64,000 nt of DNA from a virus. Positions 187 to 54,345 of this stretch are shown here, one piece after another. The stretch spans positions 1 through 64,000 of IMG/VR virus record IMGVR_UViG_3300017917_001946; one strand, written 5' to 3'. A program made the position numbers and the translations under genes. The stretch's first letter is position 1; every line of letters begins with the position of its first letter. The notes below the pieces were generated by a model, which was not told where the DNA came from, made no database searches, and saw nothing but the letters and a program-made list of their open reading frames with translations.

Positions 187-215
187 TTGACTAGAATATA
201 TATAGATGATACAAT
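187..215 (+). promoter_or_regulatory. Promoter TTGACT-N17-TACAAT, leaderless
   Basis: The -35 box TTGACT is at 187-192 and the -10 box TACAAT at 210-215, with a 17-bp spacer and an upstream TGA giving an extended -10. Exactly six bases separate the -10 from the ATG at 222, so the expected transcript begins at or within a base of the start codon. The hexamers match those of the minus-strand promoter at 2575-2603. Confidence 0.75.
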
Positions 216-221
216 AAAAAT

Positions 222-332
222 ATGAACGAAAAAATACCAGGATATAAGCAGACTCCACCTGATTGGTGTGATGACTGCAATGCTGCTCCAGGAGGAGAAT
301 GTCCAGATTGTGGATGTACTCACAATTGCTAA
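222..332 (+). CDS. Cysteine-rich microprotein, possible zinc ribbon
   Basis: This 36-residue frame begins at an ATG six bases after a consensus-like promoter and has no ribosome binding site, so it is probably translated leaderless. The sequence has six cysteines: a DWCDDC knuckle, ECPDCGC and a C-terminal THNC. The CxxC pairs suggest one bound zinc, although two disulfides are also possible. It heads a run of four tiny genes (222-653) with 8-16 base gaps or overlaps, which looks like one transcript. I do not recognise a family, and the function is unknown. Confidence 0.6.
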   Translation: MNEKIPGYKQTPPDWCDDCNAAPGGECPDCGCTHNC

Positions 333-1057: not shown

Positions 1058-1086
1058 TTGACATGATTCGATCCATTTTATATAAT
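1058..1086 (+). promoter_or_regulatory. Consensus promoter TTGACA-N17-TATAAT, leaderless
   Basis: A perfect -35 TTGACA (1058-1063) and perfect -10 TATAAT (1081-1086) are separated by 17 bp, with six bases from the -10 to ATG 1093. This places the transcript start at the ATG and makes the in-frame ATG at 1063, inside the promoter, untenable as the start. Confidence 0.8.
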
Positions 1087-1092
1087 CGAACT

Positions 1093-1488
1093 ATGAGGCA
1101 TAAAGAAGATATTATTAAACTTAGATCTGAAGGCAAGACTTATAATCAGATAGTAGAAATACTAGGTTGTTCTAAAGGAACCATTGCTTATCATTTAAGC
1201 GAAAGCGTAAAAGTTAATTATAATACTCGTAAAAGAAAATATAGACGTGTAATTGATAAGCACATTAGAGAGTATAAGGAATCCTTTGGCTGCATTGACT
1301 GTGGAGAAAAGTATCCATACTACATGCTTGATTTAGATCATATTACAAATGATAAAAAATTTAGTGTTTCTGATTATAGAAGCCATACTATAGATATAGA
1401 ATTAATAAAAGCAGAAATAGCAAAATGTGAAGTTGTCTGTGCTAATTGCCATAGAATAAGAACATACCAGAGATCTGGTAGAGAATAA
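1093..1488 (+). CDS. HNH homing-type endonuclease with N-terminal helix-turn-helix
   Basis: 131 residues from ATG 1093. An in-frame ATG at 1063 overlaps the promoter -35 and is rejected. Residues about 4-30 (DIIKLRSEGKTYNQIVEILG) form a helix-turn-helix. The nuclease half has CIDC, then LDLDH with the catalytic Asp-His pair, and CANCH as the second zinc knuckle: the standard His-Me finger HNH fold that nicks or cleaves double-stranded DNA. It lies between tRNA-Gly and tRNA-Arg, a common landing place for mobile phage endonucleases. It resembles the fragment at 2-178. Confidence 0.88.
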   Translation: MRHKEDIIKLRSEGKTYNQIVEILGCSKGTIAYHLSESVKVNYNTRKRKYRRVIDKHIREYKESFGCIDCGEKYPYYMLDLDHITNDKKFSVSDYRSHTIDIELIKAEIAKCEVVCANCHRIRTYQRSGRE

Positions 1489-2187: not shown

Positions 2188-2456
2188 TTTCTATCTAACT
2201 CTAGTACAGCCACTTGAACGCCAGCATCTCCAATTGCATATATATTATCGCTCCAAGAAAGTTCAACGGTAAAAGATTGTCCTGGATATAATTTATGACC
2301 AAAATTAGATAAAGAAACATTTTCATTTCCAAGATAAGCATATCCCGTATCCATAATATTTTGTATAGATAATGTATTTGTAGAATGAATTATTTCTCTG
2401 GTAACCAAGTTTTGTGGTGTTCCATTTAAAGTCATTATTTTATGAGATAGCTTCAT
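2184..2456 (-). CDS. Small beta-rich virion-type protein
   Basis: 90 residues from ATG 2456 (MKLSHKIMTL). The frame is open further upstream, but the ATG lies exactly six bases after a TATAAT -10, so I take it as the start. The sequence looks like a single beta-sandwich (sheet-forming alternation, PGQSFTVELSW motif). It is coupled by ATGA overlap to the virion protein downstream, so it is probably a partner in the same particle substructure. No family is recognised with certainty. Confidence 0.6.
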   Translation of the reverse strand: MKLSHKIMTLNGTPQNLVTREIIHSTNTLSIQNIMDTGYAYLGNENVSLSNFGHKLYPGQSFTVELSWSDNIYAIGDAGVQVAVLELDRK

Positions 2457-2462
2457 GCATCT

Positions 2463-2492
2463 ATTATACAGCCTAATAAGGACAAAACCCAA
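2463..2492 (-). promoter_or_regulatory. Promoter for the 2456-1570 gene pair, leaderless
   Basis: On the minus strand TATAAT is at 2468-2463, with TTGGGT 18 bp upstream (2492-2487) and six bases from the -10 to ATG 2456. The -35 lies within the 3' arm of the upstream terminator hairpin. Confidence 0.6.
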
Positions 2493-12319: not shown

Positions 12320-12700
12320 ATGGCATATAGCACATTTCCAGCAACTTCTTCAATTATAAAGTCAGTTCAAAGAGGCTCAGCGGCTTCTGCTGGAAACGTA
12401 ACTATATCTGCAGTAGATATATCTAAATCTTTTGTAAATTCATTTTCAACAGGTTCTACTGGAAGCATATCAACAAATAGCAGTACATCTGGAACCTATA
12501 CTCCATCTGGAGGAAATATAGGACAATACTCTCAATCTTTTAACCCAGGAAGCGGATCTTATCCAAACTTAGTAGGAACTAGAAGCTTTAGCGGAGGATC
12601 TACATCATTAGTTTCATCAGCATATGGAGCATATCTAGTAAACTCTACTACAATAACCGTCACAGGTTCTTGCCGCTGGGAAGTTGTGGAGTATGCATAA
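12320..12700 (+). CDS. Tandem paralog 1 of 4: IKSVQRG-type virion protein
   Basis: 126 residues from ATG 12320, immediately after the previous stop. The shared family pattern is IKSVQRGSAASAGNVTI near the N-terminus, SFVNSFSTG, a Gly/Ser-rich middle, GTRSFSGGSTSL, YGAYLVNSTTITVTG and a conserved end RWEVVEYA. This is a small all-beta protein met in many phage structural clusters. Copy 1 has the most divergent middle (GQYSQSFNPGSG). It is coupled by TAATG to copy 2. Confidence 0.65.
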   Translation: MAYSTFPATSSIIKSVQRGSAASAGNVTISAVDISKSFVNSFSTGSTGSISTNSSTSGTYTPSGGNIGQYSQSFNPGSGSYPNLVGTRSFSGGSTSLVSSAYGAYLVNSTTITVTGSCRWEVVEYA

Positions 12701-13077
12701 TGGGATCTAGAATTTATCCATCTACAGCTTCTCCAATTAAATCAGTTCAAAGAGGTACGGCAGCATCTGCAGGAAATATTACCATTTCATCAGTTAATAC
12801 AAATAAAGCATTTGTTACATCTTTTTCAACTGGTGCAGCAGGAACAGTAGCTGGATCTGCAAATACATCTGGAACATATACTCCAAGCGGTGGCTCAGTT
12901 GGAGCACCTGGAGGAAACCTTAATACGTCTGGATCTTTTCCAACTTATTCTGGAACACGAAGCCTTTCTGGCGGATCAACATCTTTAATAGCTGCAAAGT
13001 ACGGCGCATATTTAGTAAATGCTACTACAATAACAGTAACTGGTGCATGCAGCTGGCAAGTTGTGGAGTATCTATAA
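12700..13077 (+). CDS. Tandem paralog 2 of 4: IKSVQRG-type virion protein
   Basis: 125 residues; ATG 12700 overlaps the previous TAA. It is collinear with the neighbouring copies (IKSVQRGTAASAGNITI, SFSTGAAGTVAG, GTRSLSGGSTSL, CSWQVVEYL). An upstream in-frame ATG inside the preceding gene is rejected because alignment of the four copies begins at this ATG. Variation between copies concentrates in the Gly/Ser-rich middle. Confidence 0.65.
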   Translation: MGSRIYPSTASPIKSVQRGTAASAGNITISSVNTNKAFVTSFSTGAAGTVAGSANTSGTYTPSGGSVGAPGGNLNTSGSFPTYSGTRSLSGGSTSLIAAKYGAYLVNATTITVTGACSWQVVEYL

Positions 13078-13463
13078 TGGCAACTTCTTTATTTCCAGAA
13101 AGTATTTCTACAATTAAATCTATTCAGAGAGGCTCTACAGCAGGTGCAGGAAACGTAACAATTAGTTCAATAGATACAAATAAATCTTTTATTAGATCTT
13201 TTTCAACGTCTTCCGCTGGTTCAGCCCAACTTGTTGGTAACGAATCTGGAACATTAAATCCATCTGGTGGAAGCATTGTTGGACCAGGTGGTGGAGGTGG
13301 AGCAGTATCTGGCGGAGGAACATTTGCTAACTATGCTGGAACTAGATCTTTTAGCGGAGGAACAACAGCAGTTACAGTTCAAGAATATGGTGCATATATA
13401 GTAAACTCCACAACAATAACAGCAACAGGAGCTTGTCGCTGGGAAGTGGTGGAATACTCATAA
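13077..13463 (+). CDS. Tandem paralog 3 of 4: IKSVQRG-type virion protein
   Basis: 128 residues, start overlapping the previous stop. It shares IKSIQRGSTAGAGNVTI, SFIRSFSTSS, GTRSFSGGTTAVTV and CRWEVVEYS with its neighbours, but has an enlarged glycine loop (GGGGGAVSGGGTF). It probably occupies an equivalent position in the same oligomer or in an alternative fibre tip. Confidence 0.65.
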   Translation: MATSLFPESISTIKSIQRGSTAGAGNVTISSIDTNKSFIRSFSTSSAGSAQLVGNESGTLNPSGGSIVGPGGGGGAVSGGGTFANYAGTRSFSGGTTAVTVQEYGAYIVNSTTITATGACRWEVVEYS

Positions 13464-13840
13464 TGACTATTAGAGTTTACCCTGCAGTTTCTTCTGGAAT
13501 TAAATCAATGCAAAGGGGTTCTGCTGCGTCTGCTGGAGCCATAACAATCTCATCTGTAGATACAACAAAATCTTTTGTTACATCTTTTTCTACTGGATCA
13601 GCTGGAACAGTTGCAACCAACAGTTCAGAAAGCGGTACATTGACTCCTTCAGGTGGTTCTGTTGCTACAGCCTCTAATGGAGCAATGGGTGGAGGTTCAT
13701 TTCCAAACTTTATTGGAACAAGAAGTTTATCTGGCGGATCTACTTCTTTAACATCAGCAGAGTATGGAGTAACATTAACAAATTCAACAACATTGACAGC
13801 AACAGGTGCTTGTCGATGGCAGGTAGTAGAATATTACTAA
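13463..13840 (+). CDS. Tandem paralog 4 of 4: IKSVQRG-type virion protein
   Basis: 125 residues, start overlapping the previous stop. It keeps the frame of the family (IKSMQRGSAASAGAITI, SFVTSFSTGSAGTV, GTRSLSGGSTSL, YGVTLTNSTTLTATG, CRWQVVEYY). Copy 4 is followed by a fresh ribosome binding site for an unrelated gene, so the array ends here. Confidence 0.65.
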   Translation: MTIRVYPAVSSGIKSMQRGSAASAGAITISSVDTTKSFVTSFSTGSAGTVATNSSESGTLTPSGGSVATASNGAMGGGSFPNFIGTRSLSGGSTSLTSAEYGVTLTNSTTLTATGACRWQVVEYY

Positions 13841-19759: not shown

Positions 19760-20038
19760 ATGGCATCATCATTTGGATTACCTTCTAACCCTACAATTGG
19801 AGATACTCATGTAGTGGGAGATAGCACCTATGTATGGACAGGGGTAGTTTGGAATCAAGTAACCAATCAAGTAACCCAAGAACAAGTTCAAGACATCGTT
19901 GCTCCTTTATTAGTCCATAATAATCATACAAATATAACTGCAAGTTATGATGATATAAATAATCTTATTTTGCTTAACGGATCTTCAGGCGGAGGAGGAG
20001 GAGCCACGGATATAGCCCTTATAATTGGCTTATCATAA
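19760..20038 (+). CDS. Short fibre-module protein
   Basis: 92 residues behind AGGAGA. It begins with a beta module (NPTIGDTHVVGDSTYVWTGVVW) and continues with QEQVQDIVAPLLVHNNHTNI and YDDINN, which is a near copy of an internal segment of the giant fibre at 14251 (around its residue 770), then a glycine stretch and a short end. It could be a detached fibre module that co-assembles with that fibre, or a remnant of one. Confidence 0.6.
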   Translation: MASSFGLPSNPTIGDTHVVGDSTYVWTGVVWNQVTNQVTQEQVQDIVAPLLVHNNHTNITASYDDINNLILLNGSSGGGGGATDIALIIGLS

Positions 20039-20053
20039 AAGGCATAGTATAAT
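20025..20053 (+). promoter_or_regulatory. Promoter TTGGCT-N17-TATAAT, leaderless
   Basis: TTGGCT (20025-20030) and TATAAT (20048-20053) are 17 bp apart, and six bases separate the -10 from ATG 20060. There is no ribosome binding site before that ATG, so leaderless translation is expected. Confidence 0.7.
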
Positions 20054-20059
20054 AACAAT

Positions 20060-20392
20060 ATGGCAACTTTCAGCAATTTAAAGGCACATGCGGTAGGAAC
20101 TACCGAAGTAACCATTGCCAATATAATTAGTCCAACAGTCTTAACTGGCTGTAATTTTGCCAATATAATTGGTTCGTCAGCATCAATATCTTTATACGTA
20201 GATAATATCGATGAGGTGGAAGAAACAACTACAACATATTATATTGTAAAGGATAAAAGTGTGTTGGGAAACGAAAATTTAGATGTAATTTCGGCCAACA
20301 AAATATTTTTAAAAAATGGAGACATCTTAAAGGCTAAGGCCACAGTCCAAGCCTCTTTTGATATTCTAATCTCCACCATGGATGGTATTTAA
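20060..20392 (+). CDS. Small beta-sandwich virion protein (divergent third paralog)
   Basis: 110 residues, probably translated from a leaderless mRNA. It follows the beta layout of the 17810 product: an N-terminal HAVGTTEVTIANII strand pair, GCNFANIIGSSASISLYVDN, an insertion with a TTTTYYIVKDKSVL hairpin, and a FLKNGDILKAKATV end that corresponds to YLEEGDSLRLTASA there. It is therefore placed in the same family. Overlaps the next gene by one base. Confidence 0.55.
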   Translation: MATFSNLKAHAVGTTEVTIANIISPTVLTGCNFANIIGSSASISLYVDNIDEVEETTTTYYIVKDKSVLGNENLDVISANKIFLKNGDILKAKATVQASFDILISTMDGI

Positions 20393-26682: not shown

Positions 26683-27380
26683 TCAAAAGTTTTTTTATTC
26701 CAAAACATTTTTTTATAATATCCACTTAGTACAGAATTAGCATCAAACTTAACTTGCTCAGATGCATTCATATATTTATCGTCATAGGAAACTTCGCTAC
26801 TCCAAGATTCTTTTTTAAACGGAATAATTTGTGCTATTGGTGTTCCTCTTTCTATAATTCCTTCAAAATCTGATTTTAAGAAAAATGGAATACTTCCTTC
26901 TGAAAAATATTTGTCTGCATCCATAATTCCAGAAGTTGTTGTAAACGGCAAATCAAATCTATTTAATGGATGAGTTACCATAACAGAGTAACCCCTTGGA
27001 ACTTTAAAACCAAATCTTCCTAAAAAAGCCCAATTCTCTGGATCGTGTCCAGATGGAACTGGAATTCCTTTTACTCCACCAGACTCTCTAAATACTACTG
27101 GATTTGGAGGAACCTTCCATGAAAGTACAGCCGCTTTAACACCAGGTTCCCTTGTAACCTGAATATCAGTATGGAGTCTAAGAACATATCCAAAGGTTAA
27201 AGAATCTAAAAATGGCACACACTGCTTTCCAGTACTATTTGAAGATAATTCTCTTATTTTTGGTTTTCCACCTATCCAAGAATCCATATCCTTGTACCAT
27301 TGAGGTATTATTTTTTTTGCAGGAATAGGATGCTCTAATTTAGGCTCTTTTTGAGTAGGAATAAATATTATTTTTTTCAT
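26679..27380 (-). CDS. Conserved phage protein of unknown function
   Basis: 233 residues, the only minus-strand gene inside the structural block. Recognisable features are IPQWYKDMDSW near the N-terminus, TGKQCVPFLDSLTFGYVLRL, and LPFTTTSGIMDADKYF followed by GIIERGTPIAQIIPFKKESW. The last two segments recall the order of strands and the GxxIAQ strand in dUTPase/dCTP deaminase folds, but the catalytic motifs are not convincing, so this is a weak hint. Similar proteins occur in cyanophages and other aquatic phages without assigned function. It has its own leaderless-type promoter. Confidence 0.6.
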   Translation of the reverse strand: MKKIIFIPTQKEPKLEHPIPAKKIIPQWYKDMDSWIGGKPKIRELSSNSTGKQCVPFLDSLTFGYVLRLHTDIQVTREPGVKAAVLSWKVPPNPVVFRESGGVKGIPVPSGHDPENWAFLGRFGFKVPRGYSVMVTHPLNRFDLPFTTTSGIMDADKYFSEGSIPFFLKSDFEGIIERGTPIAQIIPFKKESWSSEVSYDDKYMNASEQVKFDANSVLSGYYKKMFWNKKTFD

Positions 27381-27386
27381 GTATTT

Positions 27387-27395
27387 ATAATACCA
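27387..27395 (-). promoter_or_regulatory. Extended -10 TGGTATTAT, leaderless
   Basis: On the minus strand TGG-TATTAT (27395-27387) is followed by six bases and ATG 27380. No ribosome binding site is present. The -35 position (TTTTAA) is weak, as expected when the -10 is extended. Confidence 0.6.
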
Positions 27396-28831: not shown

Positions 28832-28840
28832 TGGTACAAT
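28832..28840 (+). promoter_or_regulatory. Extended -10 TGGTACAAT, leaderless
   Basis: TGG-TACAAT (28832-28840) is followed by six bases (ATAAAA) and ATG 28847. No ribosome binding site lies between them. Confidence 0.65.
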
Positions 28841-28846
28841 ATAAAA

Positions 28847-29971
28847 ATGGCAACTACAGGTAAGGGTTTTCATTACCCAGTATATACAGACACACCAGAC
28901 GTCCCTAGAGACCTGGAATACTTAGCTGAAGACGTAGATGCATATTTAACAACACACCCTGGTCCAACAGGTGCTACAGGTCCAACAGGACCTGCAGGTG
29001 CAACAGGTCCATCAGGACCAATTGGCCCAACAGGCGCTACAGGCCCAACTGGACCAACAGGTCCAACTGGTCCATCTGGCCCACAAGGAACTGCGGTAAC
29101 AATTCTTGGAACATATAATTCATTAGGTGAATTGCAAACAGCACACCCAACTGGAAATGCTGGAGATGGTTATTTAATTGGCGGAACTCTTTATGTTTGG
29201 TCAGCATCAACATCATTATGGGAAAATGTTGGTAATATTCAAGGTCCAACAGGAGCTACAGGACCAACTGGCCCAACAGGACCACAAGGTCCTTCTGGAA
29301 CAGATTCGGTTGTTCCTGGTCCAGAAGGGGCTACAGGCCCAACAGGACCTGCAGGTGCAACAGGTCCATCAGGACCACAAGGTCCTCAAGGTCCATCTGG
29401 CCCATCAGGCCCAGTAGGAGCTCAAGGTGCAACTGGACCATCTGGCGCAAACTCTACAGTTGCTGGACCAACAGGTCCAACTGGACCAGTAGGCCCAACG
29501 GGACCAACGGGACCAGCTGGTGAAGTGACATTACTTGGAGCACAAACCCTTGTAGATAAAACATTAAATTATGCTACATTGTTATCTGGAACAGAAACTA
29601 CTAATATTGTTGCTTCCGCTGCCACTGGAACAATTAACATGGATGCTGAAACATCAACAATTTATTATTATACATCTGACGCAACAGCAAATCATACATT
29701 AAATTTTAGATATAATTCATCAACATCTTTATCTTCAAAATTAAGTGTTGGAGAAGCAATAACATTTGTTTGGATGAACACAAGCGGTACAACAGCATAT
29801 TATCCATCAACTATTCAAGTAGACGGAACAACTGTTACTCCAAAATGGCAGGGAGGAACCGCACCAACTGGAGGCAATACAAGCTCTGTAGATTTATATA
29901 CATTTACAGTTATTAAAACATCGGCTACACCAGCCTATTTAGTTCTTGGATCACAAACTAAGTTTGCGTAG
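28847..29971 (+). CDS. Collagen-like appendage protein
   Basis: 374 residues. The N-terminal 40 residues ([30 protein letters not shown]) are a known phage anchoring segment. Two collagen-like blocks, about residues 38-80 and 128-224, consist almost wholly of Gly-Pro-Thr, Gly-Ala-Thr and Gly-Pro-Ser triplets, separated by a small beta module ([33 protein letters not shown]). The C-terminal 140 residues are a beta domain with [18 protein letters not shown]. It is expected to be a trimeric collagen-like fibre. The repeat is preserved despite third-codon variation, so it is under protein-level selection. Confidence 0.8.
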
Positions 29972-31590: not shown

Positions 31591-31814
31591 CAGATATTAT
31601 AAATATTGAACAGCCAGAAGAGGCACCAACATTATTTAAGGTCTCTTCAGACATTGAGTCTGACGAATTATATATTAATTGGATTAAAGCAACACCTGGA
31701 AGTAGATGGGTTGACATTCAAAATACTGGATTAAATATTATTAGAGAAAATAGAGATAATGTAATTTATATTTATAATGAATCATCAGATAGTTGGGATA
31801 TTGATGTCATATAA
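31587..31814 (+). CDS. 75-residue acidic protein between two fibre genes
   Basis: It starts in an ATGA overlap with the glycine-rich fibre gene, and its end overlaps the next start by 11 bases. The product is acidic, with a central tryptophan-rich beta part (LYINWIKATPGSRWVDIQ). It is not recognised. Tight coupling on both sides argues that it is made in proportion with its neighbours, as an adaptor or chaperone would be. Confidence 0.55.
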   Translation: MTDIINIEQPEEAPTLFKVSSDIESDELYINWIKATPGSRWVDIQNTGLNIIRENRDNVIYIYNESSDSWDIDVI

Positions 31815-33676: not shown

Positions 33677-33705
33677 TTGACCCAAAAGAATGGTAAAATT
33701 ATAAC
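33677..33705 (+). promoter_or_regulatory. Promoter of the head module
   Basis: Two readings overlap: TTGACC-N17-TATAAC (33677-33682 and 33700-33705), or an extended -10 TGGTAAAAT (33691-33699) eight bases before ATG 33708. Either way the leader is at most a few bases. Confidence 0.55.
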
Positions 33706-33707
33706 CT

Positions 33708-34055
33708 ATGGATATTAATAAAATTAATACAAAGGTTCTAGATGAAGAGACTAGACTTGGTATATATGTCTGGGAAATGCCAGATGGAAGGTGGATAGGC
33801 GATGATGAAGGAAACTATTTATCAATCACCTCAACAAAAGGAAACAAGTCACGAATTTCTTTATTGGCTAATGAAGTTCGGTCATACGGTATTTCTGAAG
33901 GCGGGCCTCTATTTCTTTCTGGACGCAGGAAAATCGACGACGAAGAATTTGAATATCAGCAACAAAGATTAAAGTGGGGTCTTGTACCAGATCCATTGGA
34001 TATTGGTAATTATAAAGATGAAATGAAAGCGTTGAAAAACGGAGGGCTAAAATAA
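33708..34055 (+). CDS. Conserved protein encoded before the portal
   Basis: 115 residues, no ribosome binding site; probably leaderless. It begins NKINTKVLDEETRLGIYVWEMPDGRW and contains FLSGRRKIDDEEFEYQQQRLKWGLVPDP, a charged helical end. Small proteins of this kind are found just upstream of portals in several long-tailed phages. Its stop overlaps the portal start. Function unknown. Confidence 0.6.
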   Translation: MDINKINTKVLDEETRLGIYVWEMPDGRWIGDDEGNYLSITSTKGNKSRISLLANEVRSYGISEGGPLFLSGRRKIDDEEFEYQQQRLKWGLVPDPLDIGNYKDEMKALKNGGLK

Positions 34056-35643: not shown

Positions 35644-35667
35644 AGGCAACTAGTTATTTGCCTTTTT
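35644..35667 (+). terminator. Terminator hairpin after the portal
   Basis: AGGCAA (35644-35649) pairs with TTGCCT (35658-35663) across an 8-nt loop, followed by TTTT. The 3' arm doubles as the -35 box of the next promoter. Confidence 0.6.
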
Positions 35668-35686
35668 ATATTTTAAAAGATAAAAT
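35658..35686 (+). promoter_or_regulatory. Promoter TTGCCT-N17-TAAAAT for the capsid genes
   Basis: TTGCCT (35658-35663), a 17-bp spacer and TAAAAT (35681-35686) lie seven bases before ATG 35694. The same hexamers with the same spacing precede the tail-tube gene at 41318-41346, suggesting a shared late promoter class for the most abundant virion proteins. Confidence 0.65.
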
Positions 35687-35693
35687 TAAGCAT

Positions 35694-37019
35694 ATGAATA
35701 TTGAAAAATCTTATTGGTCTTCAAATGGCGACAATATTAATTTGTCCGTTCCGTTTACAAAGGTCAACCGTGAAAAAAGAACTGTTTCTGGATTCGCTAC
35801 TTTAGACAATCTGGATCAAACAGGAGATGTCGTTACGGCTGATGCAAGCCTAAAAGCTTTTGAAAACTTCCGTGGGAATATTCGTGAAATGCATGGATCA
35901 AATGCTGTTGGCAAAATGGTTTCATTTAAGCCAGAAACATTTTATGATCCAAAAAGCGGAGAATTTTATAATGGAGTCTATGTAGACGCATATATTTCTA
36001 AAGGCGCACAAGACACATGGGAAAAGATTTTGGACGGAACTTTAGCAGGATTTTCAATAGGTGGAAAAATTATTGACTCAGATAATGAAGTTAATAAGTC
36101 TACAGGACAAGCAGTTCGTTTTATTAAAGAATACGCATTGATGGAATTATCAGTTGTTGATTCACCAGCAAACGAACTATGCAACATTTTGTCTATTCAA
36201 AAGATGAATGGTCAATTAATGTTTAAAGGAATTGCAGCAGAAACTGCTACAGAAAATATTTTTTATTGTGAAGAAAGTAAATCAGTATTCATCTCACACG
36301 ATGCATCTTACGACTCCCCAGTTACTGGTAAACCAGCAACATTAATTGGTTGGGTAGAGAGTAACGATGTTAACAAAGCTAAAGAGATAGATAAAATTCT
36401 TGATTCGTTTATGAAGTCAAGATTACCGTTGCCTGAAACACAAACAATTGCAAAACAGGCAAACGTAGAAGGAGGTAATGAAGTGTCAGAAAACACAGAA
36501 AACGTAGTTGCAGAAGATGCAGTAGCACCAGAAGCAGCCGTAGAAGAAACACCAGTTGTTGCTGAGGAAGCACCAGCTGCTGAAGTTGCTGTAGAAGATG
36601 CAGTAGCAGACGCTTCTGCCGAAACTCTAGAAAAAGCAGCCGACGTATCAGAAGTTGAGGTTGATGAACCTGATTTTGCAAAGATGCTTGGTGACCTAAA
36701 AGGATTTTTCTCAGAGACTCTAAATAAAGCTTCAGAAGCAAATGCAGCACAAGTTTCAACAATCAAAGAGACAGTTGAAGTTTTCAGCAAGAGCGTCGAT
36801 AGCAGAATTTCAGAATTGGCAGAACAACATGCCGTATTAAGCAAGGCTGTTGAAGATATCAAGAGCACGATTGATGGCGTAGAAAAGCGTGTCGATGCAG
36901 TTGAATCAGAGACTGCAATTAAGAAGTCCTCAGACCTTGGCGGGTCTCAGGAAGTAACAATCAAAAAATCAAAATGGAACGGTTCTTTCCTTGGTTCCGT
37001 AAACGAATTATTCAACTAA
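35694..37019 (+). CDS. Prohead protease fused to scaffold-like domain (XkdF-type)
   Basis: 441 residues from ATG 35694; an upstream in-frame start lies inside the promoter. Residues 20-165 are an HK97-like serine protease: H67 (REMHG), S121 (GTLAGFSIGG) and E151 (LMELSVVDSPAN) correspond to the usual His-Ser-Glu triad. After a long Ala/Glu/Val-rich linker (about 270-320), residues 330-420 are a coiled coil (LGDLKGFFSETLNKASEANA, IKETVEVFSKSVDSRISELA) typical of capsid scaffold, with a basic capsid-binding end. Protease and scaffold in one chain explains the absence of a separate scaffold gene. It processes the procapsid. Confidence 0.88.
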   Translation: MNIEKSYWSSNGDNINLSVPFTKVNREKRTVSGFATLDNLDQTGDVVTADASLKAFENFRGNIREMHGSNAVGKMVSFKPETFYDPKSGEFYNGVYVDAYISKGAQDTWEKILDGTLAGFSIGGKIIDSDNEVNKSTGQAVRFIKEYALMELSVVDSPANELCNILSIQKMNGQLMFKGIAAETATENIFYCEESKSVFISHDASYDSPVTGKPATLIGWVESNDVNKAKEIDKILDSFMKSRLPLPETQTIAKQANVEGGNEVSENTENVVAEDAVAPEAAVEETPVVAEEAPAAEVAVEDAVADASAETLEKAADVSEVEVDEPDFAKMLGDLKGFFSETLNKASEANAAQVSTIKETVEVFSKSVDSRISELAEQHAVLSKAVEDIKSTIDGVEKRVDAVESETAIKKSSDLGGSQEVTIKKSKWNGSFLGSVNELFN

Positions 37020-53520: not shown

Positions 53521-53529
53521 TTGACCAAA

Positions 53530-53538
53530 TGGTATAAT
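53530..53538 (+). promoter_or_regulatory. Extended -10 TGGTATAAT, leaderless
   Basis: TGG-TATAAT (53530-53538) is followed by six bases (AATAAA) and ATG 53545. The promoter begins ten bases after the stop of the hub gene. No good -35 is present. Confidence 0.65.
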
Positions 53539-53544
53539 AATAAA

Positions 53545-54345
53545 ATGGCAAAGCAACCAATTCCAAATAGAATCCCTACTAAAAAAGTTACTAGGGATCT
53601 TCCTTTAATTTTAGACTCAAATAGTAGAGACCTGCTTTGGCTAAGAGCGGATGAAGTAATAGTTAAAGAAAGCACTGGATATGCTTATAGCAAATATATT
53701 GGAGGGCCTTCTGTCCCACCTGGAGACGGCAATGTAGATGGAGATAATAATGGCGTAGGAGATGGACTACCAGAAATAGATACAGTCGACATGACTGATA
53801 TTGAAAGCATAACATTTGAAGAATATGTAGATCCTTCTACTAAAATAACAAAATATAATTGTATGATTAAAATTAGAAACGGTAGTAAAAGCGCAGCAAG
53901 CGTTGTTGGTGTAGATGCAAGAATTTATGATTCTGCTTCATCATCGTATGCGGCTTCAACAGCAGAAGCAAATACAAACAATAGTCCAGAATTTGTTACC
54001 CCAACGCCATCAGTCCCATCAGTAATATTTGATAGAACTGGAACAACTGGAGTTTCATGGGGATGGAACGACGTCTCTGGATTTGGATCGTATTCTACAA
54101 TTGCATATGAATGGATAATTTCAACATCACAAACTGGCGGAACTGTAGTAAGTCAGGGAACAAAAACATATCCTTCTACTTCATACTACGGAATTGGTGA
54201 TAGTGGTAAAACCAAACAATATAAAATTAGCTCTTCACAAGGAGACACGCCACCTTCTTCATCTGCAAGATGGCTAAAAGTTAGGGCAGTAGTAACTGGA
54301 ACAAATGGTAAAAAATACTATTCTAGTTATTCAACGCCAATTTAA
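53545..54345 (+). CDS. Tail-tip associated protein with Asp/Gly-rich loop
   Basis: 266 residues from ATG 53545, predicted leaderless; an in-frame TTG at 53521 lies within the promoter region. The N-terminal part (RDLPLILDSNSRDLLWLRADEV) recurs in phage tip proteins. It continues with a calcium-binding-like loop (DGNVDGDNNGVGDG, about 65-80), then a beta domain with SVIFDRTGTTGVSWGWNDVSGFGSY and WIISTSQTGG, similar to a fibronectin-like strand order. Role in tip or fibre attachment inferred. Confidence 0.6.
   Translation: MAKQPIPNRIPTKKVTRDLPLILDSNSRDLLWLRADEVIVKESTGYAYSKYIGGPSVPPGDGNVDGDNNGVGDGLPEIDTVDMTDIESITFEEYVDPSTKITKYNCMIKIRNGSKSAASVVGVDARIYDSASSSYAASTAEANTNNSPEFVTPTPSVPSVIFDRTGTTGVSWGWNDVSGFGSYSTIAYEWIISTSQTGGTVVSQGTKTYPSTSYYGIGDSGKTKQYKISSSQGDTPPSSSARWLKVRAVVTGTNGKKYYSSYSTPI

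Follow-up and report, generated by a model that had tools for sequence, protein, structure and literature searches.

Many genes of actinobacteria are leaderless, enough to make up a major class (PMC3160421, PMC7148126) that accounts for about 14% of mycobacterial genes (PMC7148126), and the signature published for such genes is a TA-like signal located some 12 bp upstream (Zheng et al. 2011, PMC3160421). Leaderless SigA promoters have also been predicted in phages, namely in the cluster O mycobacteriophages (PMC4351075) and for gene 90 of Adephagia (PMC11373665). The stretch of DNA analyzed here, termed the window, comprises positions 1 to 64,000 of the 68,467-base viral record IMGVR_UViG_3300017917_001946 and has a comparable arrangement at seven gene starts, where a -10 hexamer is followed by exactly six bases and ATG (termed N6).

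Promoter Arrangement in the Window

The seven starts listed in the first-pass annotation (222, 1093, 20060, 28847 and 53545 on the plus strand, 2456 and 27380 on the minus strand) were all confirmed, as were the TGG or TGA extensions in four of the boxes (TGATACAAT, TGGTATTAT, TGGTACAAT and TGGTATAAT). The promoters of 27380, 28847 and 53545 are read from the sequence as TGG-extended. The first (27378..27395, minus strand) has TGGTATTAT-N6-ATG with the hexamer TATTAT and precedes the gene for a 233-aa protein (27380-26679, phrog_7084); the second (28832..28849) has TGGTACAAT-N6-ATG with TACAAT and precedes a collagen-like tail fibre gene (28847-29971); and the third (53530..53547) has TGGTATAAT-N6-ATG with TATAAT and precedes the gene for a 266-aa protein (53545-54345) with no assigned function. 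A TTG-type -35 at 17 bp is present ahead of the HNH endonuclease gene 1093-1488 (PHROGs; TTGACA-N17-TATAAT-N6-ATG, 1058..1095) and of a 110-aa ORF with no assigned function (20060-20392; TTGGCT-N17-TATAAT-N6-ATG, 20025..20062). On the minus strand, TTGGGT-N18-TATAAT-N6-ATG (2454..2492) lies before a 90-aa ORF (2456-2184), also with no assigned function. Both a TGA extension and a TTG -35 at 17 bp are found at 187..224 (TTGACT-N17-TACAAT-N6-ATG), where the 36-codon ORF 222-332 is the least certain of the seven as a gene. Two near cases, described as one or two bases off, proved to be N7 and N8, respectively. The head maturation protease gene 35694-37019 is preceded by TTGCCT-N17-TAAAAT-N7-ATG (35658..35696), again with the -35 at 17 bp, and the gene 33708-34055, just before the portal gene, by the extended -10 TGGTAAAAT-N8-ATG with the hexamer TAAAAT (33691..33710).

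The surroundings of these sites have several further features. Within 1-1569, the HNH endonuclease gene at 1093 lies among three tRNA genes (Asn, Gly and Arg), and another HNH-like C terminus is located at the window start. In the tail region, four paralogous genes in tandem (12320-13840), each about 125 codons long, have conserved C termini. A terminator-like hairpin (35644-35663) follows the portal gene, and the protease promoter has its -35 (TTGCCT) within the 3' arm, an overlap that fits a separate transcription unit for the protease. Upstream of 53545, GTTGACCAAA (53521-53529) directly follows the preceding stop codon and is kept in close relatives; GTTGACC at this place was rejected as a -35 element, being only 6 nt from the -10.

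Enrichment of the Six-base Spacing

When the kind of motif search proposed in the first-pass annotation is made as a raw count of TATAAT-Nk-ATG in the window, there is no convincing peak at six (6 matches at k = 6, 7 at k = 9 and 6 at k = 10), and the signal emerges only at gene starts. The pattern TGNTANNAT-N6-ATG has only four matches in the record, which are the four extended boxes, and the reversed pattern has none. As the naive string count does not single out six, the test must be made at gene starts. The automatic gene caller is a simple one that takes the leftmost ATG and is blind to the promoter, and its set of 64 starts for the record left out 222 and 1093. Five of these 64 starts have N6, compared with a null mean of 0.59, and 2000 dinucleotide shuffles gave a maximum of 4 with none reaching 5; the enrichment over chance, whose absence had been named beforehand as a reason to give up the leaderless reading, is thus present at gene starts.

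The set was enlarged to nine phages, composed of the record and eight large relatives from viral contigs (33-37% GC), for a total of 787 starts from 239 protein families. Of these, 27 starts in 15 families have TATAAT at spacing 6, compared with a mean of 1.4 families for the other spacings from 0 to 20 (without 6 and 7), the family counts being the fairer figure since orthologous genes and related phages are not sampled independently. Internal ATGs, used as a control, predict 1.2 starts at spacing 6, and the peak is confined to gene starts. A second, broad -10 hump in the nine phages lies 22-29 nt before the starts and fits ordinary leadered promoters. A general scan for -35/-10 promoters gave no real excess (69 compared with 62 expected). 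The share of the phage's genes with a promoter placed for the mRNA to start at the start codon is about 1 in 8. Since TATAAT-like hexamers are common at 36% GC, the N6 cases might simply have been picked out from chance occurrences, and the raw window count agrees with this in not singling out six; the tests at gene starts, the internal-ATG control and the family counts, together with the TGn signal and the orthologue conservation described below, refute this explanation in the main and leave it scarcely credible.

Shine-Dalgarno, TGn, and -35 Signals

The absence of a ribosome binding site noted earlier holds, with no Shine-Dalgarno (SD) sequence ahead of the listed ATGs. The SD core is present at 3% of N6 genes compared with 62% of genes having a -10 at 18-32 nt; elsewhere, it occurs at 43% of other genes and at 12% of internal ATGs. 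For the TGn extension, sites were picked by the hexamer alone, leaving the extension unselected, and TGn is found at 81% of N6 sites compared with 6% of TATAATs away from starts. A -35 match (at least 5 of 6 positions at 16-18 bp) is present at 6 of the 13 N6 sites without TGn compared with 1 of the 31 with it (Fisher p = 0.0014). A sigma-70/SigA promoter is expected to carry one of two elements, an extended -10 or a -35, and at the N6 sites a TATAAT-like -10 is accompanied by TGn or by a -35 at a distance of 16-18 bp.

Proposed Leaderless Initiation

Since the last T of the -10 in sigma-70 promoters is at -7 with +1 six bases on, the A of AUG coincides with +1 in the N6-ATG arrangement. The spacing peak, the missing SD, the TGn and -35 signals, the conservation among orthologues and a Vibrio phage control support the leaderless reading that had been made from the sequence, and the N6 genes are very probably leaderless, lying behind SigA-type promoters read by the host polymerase. 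Host RNA polymerase with SigA would bind either the extended -10 (TGnTATAAT) or a -35/-10 pair (TTGnnn-N17-TAnnnT), and the RNA would start 7 nt past the hexamer at the A of ATG, giving an mRNA with the start codon at its very 5' end. Ribosomes would then initiate on this 5'-terminal AUG directly, without the aid of an SD sequence, other genes of the same phage being served by SD leaders.

The reader of these promoters is probably the host SigA polymerase, since no sigma domain was found in the record (searched for Sigma70_r4) or in the eight relatives (searched for Sigma70_r2), all of which are incomplete. A phage-encoded or alternative sigma factor could read the boxes with the genes leaderless all the same, as a sigma-70 factor is present in cultured Nanopelagicales phages (PMC10202952) and such a gene could lie outside the incomplete records; the domain searches argue against this, as do the -10, TGn and -35 features, which are of the housekeeping type, and it is considered very unlikely.

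Conservation among Freshwater Relatives

Orthologues keep the promoter arrangement while the flanking DNA has drifted. N6 is kept in all 13 orthologues of the tail fibre gene 28847 and in 4 of 4 close orthologues of 53545 as well as in the relatives G017 and G018. The head protease (35694) retains N7 in 19 of 19 freshwater orthologues, and the pre-portal gene (33708) has N8 or N9 in most of them. The N6 arrangement of 27380 is not conserved in distant homologues. In a neighbouring family (called at 31777, probable start 31804), members among close phages have either a leaderless TGGTATAAT-N6-ATG or an SD-led start, and the copy in the window lacks a clear N6 as well as a clear SD; this mixture indicates that the start mode turns over, as has been reported among bacterial orthologues (PMC3160421).

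If +1 lies strictly 7 nt from the hexamer, 33708 and 35694 would have leaders of 1-2 nt. The promoters might more generally be real with +1 shifted by a few bases, resulting in short leaders or in an mRNA that begins inside the gene and uses a downstream start codon. Sigma-70 start sites do vary by a few bases, and N7-N9 cases occur; the peak at 6 is nevertheless sharp, and orthologues have conserved N-terminal residues at the N6 ATG, making a shifted start quite unlikely compared with initiation at the N6 ATG itself.

Streptomyces, Rhodococcus, and Vibrio Phages

Among named phages, the closest belong to the Streptomyces phages of the Stanwilliamsviridae, with about 59% identity for the portal and 58% for DnaE. 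The homologous core genes are in the same order as in Streptomyces phage BillNye (transglycosylase, glycosyltransferase, RNR, portal, protease and capsid), which places the phage as a relative of this family and very probably an actinobacterial phage. BillNye and Mandalore have a -10 peak at k = 6 (6 and 5 starts, respectively), where no other spacing exceeds 2. The protease promoter is TTGnnn-N17-TAnnnT-N6-ATG in all nine Streptomyces phages compared, and the pre-portal gene has N6 or N7 in Streptomyces phages. Among three Rhodococcus phages, the pre-portal gene has N6 in two and N7 in one, and no clear N6 was found at the protease starts. In a Vibrio phage (Demerecviridae) put through the same procedure as a control, -10 boxes are absent at k = 6 and numerous at k = 15-34.

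In several of the Streptomyces phages the annotated start precedes the N6 ATG by two codons (both genes of IchabodCrane, the pre-portal gene of NootNoot and the protease of Wofford and Tomas), and in the Tomas pre-portal gene it is five codons downstream. Taking the N6 ATG as the start restores the N terminus common to the relatives, suggesting that the published start codons of these genes probably need correction. Leaderless initiation of the pre-portal and protease genes might further be an ancestral, selected family trait that extends from streptomycetes to freshwater actinobacteria and serves as a control device, which is doubtful; if true, it could favour these genes when SD-dependent initiation limits late in infection.

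Host Assignment

The bearing of the arrangement on an actinobacterial host, raised in the first-pass annotation, stands with the Streptomyces-phage kinship and gene order. The actinobacterial marker WhiB (PMC10202952) occurs in four relatives; taken together with the Streptomyces-phage kin, this finding points very probably to an actinobacterial host. The low GC and metagenomic origin prompt the guess of a freshwater lineage. Searching genomes for a host by WhiB found nothing; searching by portal gave a single distant hit (31%), which lies in an Actinomycetes MAG, and two contigs of the phage group in non-actinobacterial GTDB MAGs (Cytophagaceae and a cyanobacterium), which are probably mis-binned.

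Comparison with Known Systems

The promoter-N6-ATG rule would predict where transcription and translation begin in uncultured actinobacteriophages, suggests corrected start codons in published annotations, and may serve as an added signature of actinobacterial hosts for metagenomic phages. A search of the open-licence literature found no paper on leaderless promoters in this phage family.

The window sites resemble the TA-led genes of actinobacteria, in which the first T of TAnnnT is about 12 bp before the start codon, an SD is missing and SD-led genes are intermixed; they differ in belonging to a phage of low GC and in having a -10 closer to consensus that is often TGn-extended. The Stanwilliamsviridae Streptomyces phages (BillNye, Gilson, Jay2Jay and Mandalore) share the same promoter type before the head protease and pre-portal genes but have a higher GC content (46% and 53% in the two analyzed) and more degenerate -10 boxes, and the family thus appears to keep leaderless starts at the same genes despite large changes in host and GC. 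The cluster O mycobacteriophages and Adephagia likewise have SigA-like promoters with +1 predicted at the first base of the start codon; they belong to another phage group with few predicted cases, whereas the present set is backed by a statistical test and family-wide conservation. The leaderless SigA-type arrangement is therefore already known, and the additions made here are its non-randomness, its conservation across the family and the proposed start-codon corrections.
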